DNA of 64,000 bases from Ewingella americana ATCC 33852 (lineage in GTDB: Bacteria > Pseudomonadota > Gammaproteobacteria > Enterobacterales > Enterobacteriaceae), in assembly GCF_000735345.1 (NCBI RefSeq), contig NZ_JMPJ01000071.1, positions 114,609 through 178,608 of the forward strand, read 5' to 3'. Both the position numbers and the translations under genes were made by a program. How positions within the stretch are numbered: the first letter of the stretch is position 1; each line of letters opens with the position of its first letter. This document shows, in pieces, positions 37,545 to 40,851 of the stretch. Under the pieces are notes generated by a model, which saw nothing but the letters and a program-made list of their open reading frames with translations, searched no databases and was not told the origin of the DNA.

Positions 37545-38516
37545 TTATTTTTCTAATTTTGCGCGGTCAGTTCGATGATTGACCCAAGTATTGATCAGCA
37601 GCGTGGTCACCAAAATGGTCGCGATCACGCCCAGTGATACTCCAACCGGAATATGGAACACGTCGAGCAGCAGCATCTTGATACCGATGAAAATCAGGAT
37701 CACCGCCAGACCGTATTTCAGCATCGAGAAACGTTCCGCCACGCCTGCCAGCAAGAAATACATGGCGCGCAGGCCGAGGATGGCAAACAGGTTAGACGTC
37801 AGCACGATGAACGGGTCAGTGGTCACGGCAAAGATAGCCGGGATACTGTCTACCGCGAAAATTACGTCGCTGAGTTCCACCATAATCAATACCAGCAGCA
37901 GCGGGGTGGCGAACAGCAGGCCGTTGCGGCGGACGAAGAACTTCTCGCCGTGCAGCTCATCGGTCATACGCATTTTGCTTCGCAGCCAGCGGATCATCGG
38001 CTTCTCGCCAATCTCGCCATCATCCTCTTTCGCCAGCGCCATTTTGATGCCGGTAAACAGCAGGAATGCGCCGAAGACGTAGAGGATCCAGCTGAACTGG
38101 CCGACCAACCAACTGCCCGCAAAAATCATCCCGGTACGCAGCACAATCGCGCCCAGCACGCCGTAGACCAACACGCGGCGCTGGAGGTTTGCCGGAACGG
38201 AGAAGTAGCTGAACAGAATCAGCCAGACGAAGACGTTATCCACCGCCAGCGCTTTTTCCAACAGATAGCCGGTAAGGAACATTAGCGCCTGTTTGTCCGC
38301 CACTTCGCGGCCAAATTCGCCGTTCAGATACCACCAGAAGCCGTAGTTAAACAGCAGCGACAGGCCAATCCACACCAGCGACCACATGGCGGCACTTTTC
38401 ATGGTCATCACCTGCGCGCCTTTACGGCCCTGTAAGAACAGGTCCACGGCGAGCATGATGACCACGACGACGGCAAAACTGCCCCAGAGCATCGGGTTGC
38501 CTACGGAATTCATCAT
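37545..38516 (-). CDS. alx: TerC-family membrane protein Alx (manganese efflux/pH response)
   Basis: 323 residues (321 in E. coli). TerC family: about nine membrane helices with conserved acidic residues in [20 protein letters not shown] and [26 protein letters not shown], which form the probable ion site. E. coli Alx is linked to manganese export and to alkaline growth. Two adjacent ATG codons (38516, 38513) are possible starts. Upstream lie an attenuator hairpin and a yybP-ykoY riboswitch, so expression should follow manganese and pH. Confidence 0.95.
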
Positions 38517-38540
38517 TCTGTTATCCTCGAAAAAACATCA

Positions 38541-38575
38541 AAAAAAAACGGCCACGTCAGAAGACGTTAGCCGCT
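38541..38575 (-). terminator. Attenuator hairpin between riboswitch and alx
   Basis: On the minus strand GCGGCTAACGTC pairs with GACGTGGCCG around TTCT and is followed directly by eight T residues (38548 to 38541). It lies 25 bases before the alx start and is the likely expression platform of the riboswitch. Confidence 0.8.
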
Positions 38576-38592: not shown

Positions 38593-38876
38593 AAACCTCG
38601 CCTGACGGCAAGGTCTCACTTACAACCCACTATGCTTTATCCTTCGAGCTGCAGGGGTGTTGGCTGCGCTTGCTCACCCTAATCACTGACTTTTGTCAGC
38701 TCATAGGGATTCACGCGCTTGCCGCCTACCTGCAACTCGAATGCTTTCGCATAGTCGCTATTCATTCGATGAATATCTGGATTGCCCGGAAACCGGGTGG
38801 CTGAGACGTGCGCTGCGACAGCGCGGGTCCAGACACCGTAATGACGATTATCCGACGAAGAAGTTACTCCCCTTTG
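38593..38876 (-). ncRNA. yybP-ykoY (manganese/pH) riboswitch of alx, enlarged by a repeat
   Basis: On the minus strand the 5' signature AAAGGGGAGTAAC (38875 to 38863) and the 3' signature GTGAGACC followed by the hairpin CCTTGCC-gtca-GGCGAGG (38619 to 38596) are the conserved ends of this class. Inside, TCTGGA (38833 to 38828) pairs with TCCAGA (38781 to 38776) around two GC hairpins. Positions 38631-38753 are a 123-base palindromic repeat not found in the class, making the element about 285 bases instead of the usual 100-170. Confidence 0.85.
38631..38753. repeat. Palindromic intergenic repeat, copy A (inside the alx leader)
   Basis: 123 bases with ends TATGC and GCATA as a perfect inverted repeat, a second pair of arms TTCGAGCTGCA and TGCAACTCGAA, and a central hairpin CTGAC-tttt-GTCAG (38686-38699). 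It aligns end to end with copy B at 40723-40851. The family resembles palindromic repeats common between genes in Serratia, Rahnella and Pectobacterium. Confidence 0.85.
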
Positions 38877-40712: not shown

Positions 40713-40722
40713 GGTTGCTCCA

Positions 40723-40851
40723 ATACCCTTCATCCTTCGAACTGCCTCGGCGTTGGCTGCCTTCGCGAACCCCAGTCACATACTGATGTATGCTCCTGGT
40801 GATTCACTCAGTTGCCGCCTTGATGCAATCCGAATGATTTTGGGTAGGTAT
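40723..40851. repeat. Palindromic intergenic repeat, copy B (between ygjP and ygjR)
   Basis: 129 bases, end-to-end alignable with copy A. Outer ends ATACCC and GGGTaggTAT are complementary, and the central hairpin is CATAC-tgat-GTATG (40779-40792). Relative to copy A the hairpin stem changed at two base pairs with compensation (A-T to T-A, T-A to G-C). This copy lies in the ygjP-ygjR gap. Confidence 0.88.

Follow-up and report, generated by a model that had tools for sequence, protein, structure and literature searches.

Inside the stretch of Ewingella americana DNA analysed here (64,000 nucleotides, called the window below), the leader of the alx gene contains a complete copy of the mobile ERIC palindrome within the aptamer of its predicted manganese/pH riboswitch. 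The element is located in the loop of P4, between the intact base strands 38784-38779 and 38628-38623 (minus strand), and our preferred reading, to which we assign a probability of roughly 0.8, is that it is nested in this peripheral loop and tolerated as an extension of P4. The evidence comes from the position of the insert and the intact core sequence around it, from relatives with an empty or an eroded site, from recurrence of the same nesting in other lineages and from the computed cost of the aptamer fold.

The alx leader and its aptamer

The gene itself (37545-38516, minus strand) encodes a membrane protein of the TerC/Alx family (TIGR03718, 399.1 bits, E 1.3e-119) in an open reading frame of full length. 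The original prediction had recognised both conserved ends of a yybP-ykoY aptamer and its attenuator, and all three are present on the minus strand: the 5' conserved strand AAAGGGGAGTAACTT at 38875-38861 (P1.1, L1 and P1.2), the 3' end TAAGTGAGACCTTGCC starting at 38622, and a terminator-like hairpin at 38567-38554 (one found by the hairpin search, 0.6 expected from shuffles), which together with its T-run occupies 38540-38572 ahead of alx. The aptamer as a whole (38610-38875) comprises P1.1, P1.2, P3 and P4. As judged by sequence, alignment and pair counts, P3 with its L3 stretch ATCGTCATTACGG (38848-38836) and a long P3.2 hairpin, like that of the genus mates and Rahnella, extends over 38785-38855. 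The base of P4 is formed by CAATCC (38779-38784) and GGGTTG (38623-38628), predicted to be paired with a probability of 0.85 and belonging to a helix with covariation, and on the transcribed strand a small AUUCAUCGAAUGAAU hairpin precedes the ERIC within P4. The 3' conserved strand TAAGTGAGACCTT (38610-38622; P1.2, L1 and P1.1) follows; all core stretches of the window leader are unchanged. In 43 uninserted leaders, positions 2 and 4-14 of the 5' strand are invariant and the 3' strand is mostly so. A further hairpin, CCTTGCCGTCAGGCGAGG (38596-38613), has its 5' arm in common with P1.1 and a loop complementary to part of the terminator hairpin, and presumably has a role in switching.

The comparison was based on two sets of leaders. 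The first consists of 86 loci, 80 of them chosen by Alx protein similarity (the best 80 of 563 confirmed and hence biased to near relatives) and six belonging to the window's genus, including the window; the second consists of 176 loci (56 loci and 120 stretches) chosen by a 26-base 3' motif, which is present in 225 of 392 sampled genomes, the loci being drawn from among the matches listed. Both aptamer ends can be found in 261 of the 262 loci (85 of the 86 chosen by protein), which represent 233 distinct leaders. The sole exception is Atlantibacter subterranea, in which the aptamer core upstream of alx is deleted; the 5' strand runs directly into CCTTGCC, hairpin and terminator are retained, and the locus (L058) thus is a natural riboswitch-less alx leader.

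P3 and P4 of the alx aptamer are supported by covariation. In the 43 uninserted leaders, on whose alignment the structure of P1.1, P1.2, P3, P3.2 and P4 had also been drawn (which favours it), 95.4% of the cells are paired and 16 of 27 pairs have changed on both sides; the covariation score is 0.294 versus 0.146 in shuffles, none of 500 shuffles being as high, and slid versions of the structure reach at most 47.2% paired cells. P1.1 and three of the four pairs of P1.2 are invariant, bar one unpaired cell, and covariation is silent on them. A covariance model built from the same leaders (R2) gives one full-length match to the window at 38597-38875, running across the ERIC (90.9 bits, E 1.7e-22), so that, together with the covariation, the window leader fits a P1-P3-P4 arrangement closed by P1; with filters off the match comes as two pieces of 50.5 and 27.5 bits. 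The scores of genus mates that lack a full ERIC are 95.5-109.6 bits (50 sources searched, 41 matches). With default filters, the junction inserts of loci L087, L095 and L062, the two tandem ERICs of L255 and the inserts of L074 and L081, all described below, are split or not bridged.

The Rfam model RF00080 misses the alx branch of yybP-ykoY. The window leader does not reach its gathering score and is not matched even at E 10, 20 alx loci, some inserted and some not, give no match at E up to 1, and an Escherichia leader is not matched at E up to 10. A comparison of the Rfam fit with and without the repeat, as proposed in the original prediction, is indecisive, since the model misses alx leaders either way, including uninserted ones. 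R2 in turn misses leaders of the RF00080 type (13 given, one weak match of 16.7 bits), and therefore the alx leaders are assigned to the family by their L1 strands and by the literature. These strands, GGGGAGUA and GAGACC, which we take to be the metal site, occur in the window as well as in ten printed RF00080-scoring leaders of the own genome and of relatives; in the RF00080-scoring leader L008 one base is changed on each of the two strands. A database model can thus miss a whole branch of a riboswitch.

The inserted element

The insert was first recognised as an ERIC by primer sequences. What had been described as a 123-base repeat of an intergenic family (38631-38753) proved to be a full element of 126 bp at 38629-38754, oriented as alx transcription: a covariance model (R1) built from 13 ERIC copies of the E. 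americana genome, the window copy among them, matches it on the minus strand over its full length (model positions 1-126, 135.1 bits, E 1.3e-31), and the ERIC profile matches as well. Its terminal inverted repeats are ACTATGC (38755-38749) and the complementary GCATAGT (38635-38629), and its predicted fold is one long hairpin. By inspection, TA is found at or near both ERIC ends in several leaders; the junction in the window is blurred.

ERIC copies are numerous in this and related genomes. R1 has at least 51 matches in the own genome (87 of 1441 candidates scored), the copy numbers within the genus amount to 51-70 per genome as lower bounds, and a match is found in 86 of 149 family genomes with at most 23 candidates scored per genome; the intergenic position of the copies was judged through crude ORF calls alone. 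BLAST of the region against the own genome returned 18 places including itself, the other 17 at 71-91% identity, and the best long matches to the window ERIC elsewhere in this genome show 79-81% identity. A second ERIC of the window (40722-40847) overlaps the first codons of the ORF 40733-39708 as called from an upstream ATG; given this overlap, the true start of the ORF probably is the later MIRFAV.

No family named ERIC was among the results of our Rfam scan, in which V_AS5, Ysr49 and CssrA (RF02818, RF02766, RF02798) match ERIC stretches below threshold; this suggests that the models of these families could contain ERIC copies. In 20 of 48 fetched ERIC loci, scanned at the gathering threshold, no ERIC lies inside a known cis-regulatory family of Rfam, and in 30 RF00080 loci, found with an insertion-sensitive model, none was detected at E up to 0.01. 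Among the 20 scanned loci, one ERIC lies about 10 nt from RyhB and one near tRNAs.

Empty and eroded sites in close relatives

The empty site for which the original prediction had suggested looking in close relatives does exist. Four genus mates (L113-L116) have the same aptamer core with a short P4 and without ERIC, L114 differing by one base at the 5' end, so that of the five other species of the window's genus four have a core without insert, and the fifth, the closest sister (L112), has an eroded one. Alx of this sister is 100% identical (rounded) to that of the window, and because its leader shows the same flanks and the same ERIC ends with the middle deleted to a mini-hairpin, the insertion probably is older than the split of the two species and has since been eroding as a hairpin. 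A stretch of L112 chosen by eye gives a score of 28.1 when aligned with the joined ends of the ERIC, a value that none of 2000 mononucleotide shuffles reaches (best 8.0); the ERIC profile does not detect this eroded insert.

Recurrence across Enterobacterales

The case had been described as unusual; instead it is one of many insertions at several loops. ERICs, full or eroded, are found inside the aptamer in 16 of 233 distinct leaders, at three peripheral sites and in at least eight lineages. Of the 261 loci, 18 have an ERIC profile match between the two aptamer ends, corresponding to 14 distinct genomes after merging of duplicate records, and two more leaders with eroded inserts (L112, L062) were recognised by alignment. 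Inserts in the P4 loop occur in the window, in Rahnella sp. AA and R. laticis, in Rouxiella silvae, in Yersinia thracica (L052) and in two species of the genus g198. The P3.2 loop is occupied in Kosakonia sp. S29 with Phytobacter ursingii and P. diazotrophicus (shortened), in Brenneria alni and in the Pectobacterium-like L310, and the P1.2-P3 junction, presumably the place of P2 in other yybP-ykoY RNAs, in Serratia grimesii and S. quinivorans, Serratia sp. AKBS12 (L062) having what looks like an eroded form there. Another three insertions are found in or past the terminator: one within the terminator hairpin, on inspection still closable by 7 pairs, in Erwinia persicina and E. rhapontici, one past an apparently decayed terminator (L308/L363) and one between terminator and start in P. 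diazotrophicus. Weak ERIC pieces (L083, L106 and L052; E 4e-4 to 0.19) were accepted on position, those of Phytobacter (L083, L106) also on flanks common with Kosakonia, and matches with E above 3 (L088, L193, L195, L196, L228) were dropped, that of L228 being 17 bases on the minus strand within the aptamer span (E 4.2).

The differences between the lineages in both loop and ERIC sequence suggest that ERICs entered the aptamer at least eight times. ERIC identity between most lineages is 50-81%; it is 97% within Serratia, 86% within Erwinia and 88% within g198, and 83% between the window and Rahnella. The window and the two Rahnella share the same loop and fall into separate Alx clades with empty species between them; their insertions were counted as one event in the aptamer minimum and as two in the event count for the binomial and Fisher tests given below. 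On the Alx tree (94 rows, without five identical-protein rows and L058; gains and losses pooled) the aptamer ERICs, eroded ones counted, require 11 gains or losses, at least 10 of them forced by supported branches, and the full ERICs alone need 9 changes, at least 8 of them forced.

Some leaders deserve separate mention. L255 (genome G481, genus g198) carries two tandem ERICs in one P4, its aptamer ends being 367 nt apart and intact. In Escherichia whittamii and E. albertii (L074, L081) P4 contains an insert, presumably REP-like, which is flanked by near-duplicate arms resembling AAAGGAATACGCAGACGTATTCCTTT, with 286 nt between the aptamer ends; Escherichia sp. E1V33 (L089) lacks this insert. 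At least 80% of an Escherichia alx leader is covered by a match in 5369 of 5426 E. coli genomes, and all 30 leaders among the matches listed are in one piece.

Folding with and without the insert

In ten leaders the cost of enforcing the aptamer core was compared for the real insert, for the joined flanks and for shuffled inserts. The insert adds no computed cost: it is equal to the joined flanks in nine leaders and lower in one, in agreement with the earlier suggestion that the palindrome, folding on itself, could be tolerated as a loop extension. Shuffled inserts are on average more costly in all ten leaders (by 0.7 to 4.3 kcal/mol). In five leaders no more than 4 of 60 shuffles equal the real insert, and in L096 9 of 60 do; in the window (17 of 60), L031 (30 of 60), L037 (36 of 60) and L255 (23 of 60) many shuffles are as cheap, and self-folding is thus not needed for tolerance there. 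The mapped core contains three mispairs in L031 and one in L254, for which only the comparisons count.

Without enforcement, as folded for 27 leaders, the P4 base of the window leader is predicted with a probability of 0.85, the tested P3 base with 0.26. The competitor of P3 in the window is a local CCCGG-TTT-CCGGG hairpin, and the ERIC is not the cause of the low probability, since equally low values are obtained for the sister L112 (0.21) and the uninserted L038 (0.25). For P1.2 the prediction is weak in most leaders, inserted or not. In the Kosakonia/Phytobacter leaders L075, L083 and L106, L3 pairs with GAGACC in the unforced fold and no aptamer is formed, whereas the uninserted L102 does form it; this predicted misfold slightly lowers our confidence in the preferred reading.

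The poorly predicted P3 of the window and the aptamer-less folds of these three leaders would agree with an ERIC that has inactivated the riboswitch, its ends persisting as the insertion is recent, and with alx now being unregulated or silenced. We regard this as decidedly improbable, as the insertion appears older than the sister split and the sister has eroded its ERIC yet kept the core, as the P3.2 insertion is common to Kosakonia and Phytobacter with the core unchanged, and as the window has both unchanged core stretches and a full-length Alx frame.

Under the preferred reading of a tolerated extension of P4, an ERIC would have jumped into the P4 loop in an ancestor of the window species and its closest sister. 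Because the element pairs with itself to form a single long hairpin, it would act as an extension of P4, and with the core strands of P1, L1, L3 and P3 remaining in the transcript on either side the aptamer could still form. Selection on alx regulation would purge insertions in the core and spare peripheral ones, so that the same nesting would recur in many lineages, and the inserts would later erode to shorter hairpins. The leader presumably is transcribed whole and still switching, and the element would have been retained through tolerance rather than benefit.

Density, orientation and target choice

ERICs are denser in alx leaders than in neighbouring non-coding DNA. At E up to 0.001, the 86 protein-chosen loci contain 12 ERICs in 17.7 kb of leader (the window being one of the 12) as against 2 in the remaining 36.2 kb of non-coding DNA as delimited by crude ORF calls; the binomial P is 7e-5 by copies and 0.0012 by events (9 versus 2, by our own count). 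In none of these 86 loci does an insertion break an aptamer end, a point on which the loci chosen by motif are uninformative. All well-scoring leader ERICs are co-oriented with alx, and the sole opposite-oriented match below E 1 is a weak one on the minus strand of L042 (E 0.042), upstream of the leader. Elsewhere, 6 ERICs between tandem genes are co-oriented and 20 anti-oriented (52 copies by crude ORF calls: 26 tandem, 15 divergent, 6 convergent and 5 without a flank), and the comparison of 8 of 8 leader events with 6 of 26 elsewhere gives a Fisher P of 1.7e-4.

This density and this orientation would agree with an ERIC hairpin recruited to alter regulation, for instance by slowing folding or pausing or by exposing or hiding an RNase E site, and kept by selection. 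Inversion of the insert, too, raises the core-fold cost in four of the ten leaders and leaves it unchanged in six (insert ends cut roughly): from 1.4 to 2.8 kcal/mol in the window, from 1.0 to 4.1 in L037, from 2.2 to 6.4 in L254 and from 2.2 to 14.8 in L255. Orientation-dependent cleavage of ERIC transcripts by RNase E is moreover attributed to De Gregorio 2005 in three later papers (PMC2229807, PMC10969869, PMC3049150). We nevertheless consider recruitment unlikely: several inserts are eroding, most of the species sampled have no ERIC, and a replication-fork bias may explain the orientation. On the sister chromosome (G001, contig C1; one overlapping reverse match and the copies on contig C4 left aside) 41 of 50 ERICs oppose the fork with an origin near position 1 and 38 of 50 with one opposite dif (2.094 Mb), and alx also opposes the fork. 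In three further genomes (G019, G014, G021) the bias is weak or unclear on inspection by hand. Co-orientation was consequently rejected as proof of selection, the fork bias in the sister genome being a plain alternative.

The position of the inserts could also reflect target choice. If ERIC preferred the tips of DNA hairpins, the pattern would be silent on tolerance, and the P3.2 and P4 inserts are indeed found at hairpin tips, that of Erwinia in a terminator hairpin. The junction site of Serratia, by contrast, is not a tip, and at 27 ERIC sites elsewhere the flanks form no more stem than in the swapped-flank control: the mean flanking stem is 2.44 versus 3.05 for swapped flanks, and long stems occur at 2 of 27 sites versus 8% (the sites are the best-scoring copies of several relatives, some of them near-duplicates and one dubious). 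Targeting of hairpin tips was therefore rejected as an explanation and is, in our view, very unlikely to account for the pattern; ERIC does not seem to seek such tips, and the loop position thus looks like tolerance rather than targeting.

Relation to known systems

ERIC and the alx riboswitch are each known; in the searched literature, which covers few subscription papers, no paper was found to describe a mobile palindrome within an aptamer or the nesting of these two. The elements named ERIC, IRU or RU-1 of enterobacteria are characterised in PMC2229807 as multicopy imperfect palindromes of 126-127 bp with terminal inverted repeats, and the window element agrees with them in family, length, inverted repeats and the many copies per genome. 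Described ERICs are, according to PMC10969869, mostly intergenic and some intragenic, whereas those of the alx leaders lie within the aptamer domain of a riboswitch. In E. coli, leader reporters of both alx and mntP are responsive to Mn2+ as well as to alkaline pH (PMC9603457). The window leader has the same gene and core strands as the yybP-ykoY riboswitch of E. coli alx and differs by the 126-bp mobile element in P4; it is a predicted Mn2+/pH switch.

Mobile palindromes in structured RNAs are not without parallel. According to PMC2229807, Ogata 2002 described palindromes of Rickettsia in the genes of tmRNA and RNase P RNA, where they are possibly neutral. These Rickettsia palindromic elements likewise are mobile palindromes in genes of structured RNAs, but they belong to another family and reside in constitutive RNAs, whereas the ERIC of alx resides in a ligand-binding switch. 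In the pneumococcal trp operon a BOX element is co-transcribed between two T-box riboswitches, which appear to be working (PMC3049150); in the text available this is a single case and the element lies between riboswitches, while the alx ERIC lies inside an aptamer. Intervening sequences in helix 25/45 of 23S rRNA (PMC4990558) likewise are selfish elements in a helix of a functional RNA, but they are larger and located in rRNA. It has been considered conceivable that MITEs form riboswitches, as put in a 2024 review (PMC10969869).

The origin of the variation in peripheral riboswitch stems between species is rarely visible. In the alx leaders, full, shortened and absent forms of the same mobile hairpin occur at matching loops among close relatives, and the path from transposable element to helix becomes readable. 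The intervening sequences of 23S rRNA are excised from the RNA. Should the inserted alx leaders still be switching, they would show where an aptamer naturally tolerates the addition of more than 100 nucleotides. As a tentative extension, for which we would put the odds somewhat below even, ERIC palindromes could be a recurrent raw material for riboswitch architecture, landing in peripheral loops of alx leaders, being tolerated there and eroding into short helices; some of the variation among P3.2, P4 and junction stems across Enterobacterales would then be derived from transposable elements and may have been tuned to alter switching.

Complementarity between loop and terminator

The loop of the hairpin that follows the aptamer (38607-38602 in the window) is complementary to a stretch of the terminator at 38560-38555 (minus strand), and reads CGUCAG in the window and CGGAAG in most of the surveyed leaders. 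An exact complement of the own loop is present in 145 of 241 leaders versus 2954 of 28586 cross pairs with different loops, relatedness being uncontrolled in this comparison. The complement accompanies CGGAAG in 96 of 169 leaders, CGAGAG in 14 of 20, CGAAAG in 13 of 14, CAGAAG in 13 of 13, CGAATG in 6 of 7 and CGTCAG in 3 of 3; it is missing with CGGGAG (0 of 10), CGTAAG (0 of 3), CGGATG (0 of 1) and CAGTAG (0 of 1). Loop and terminator tend to change together, which looks like a kissing interaction or an alternative pairing in the expression platform of alx.
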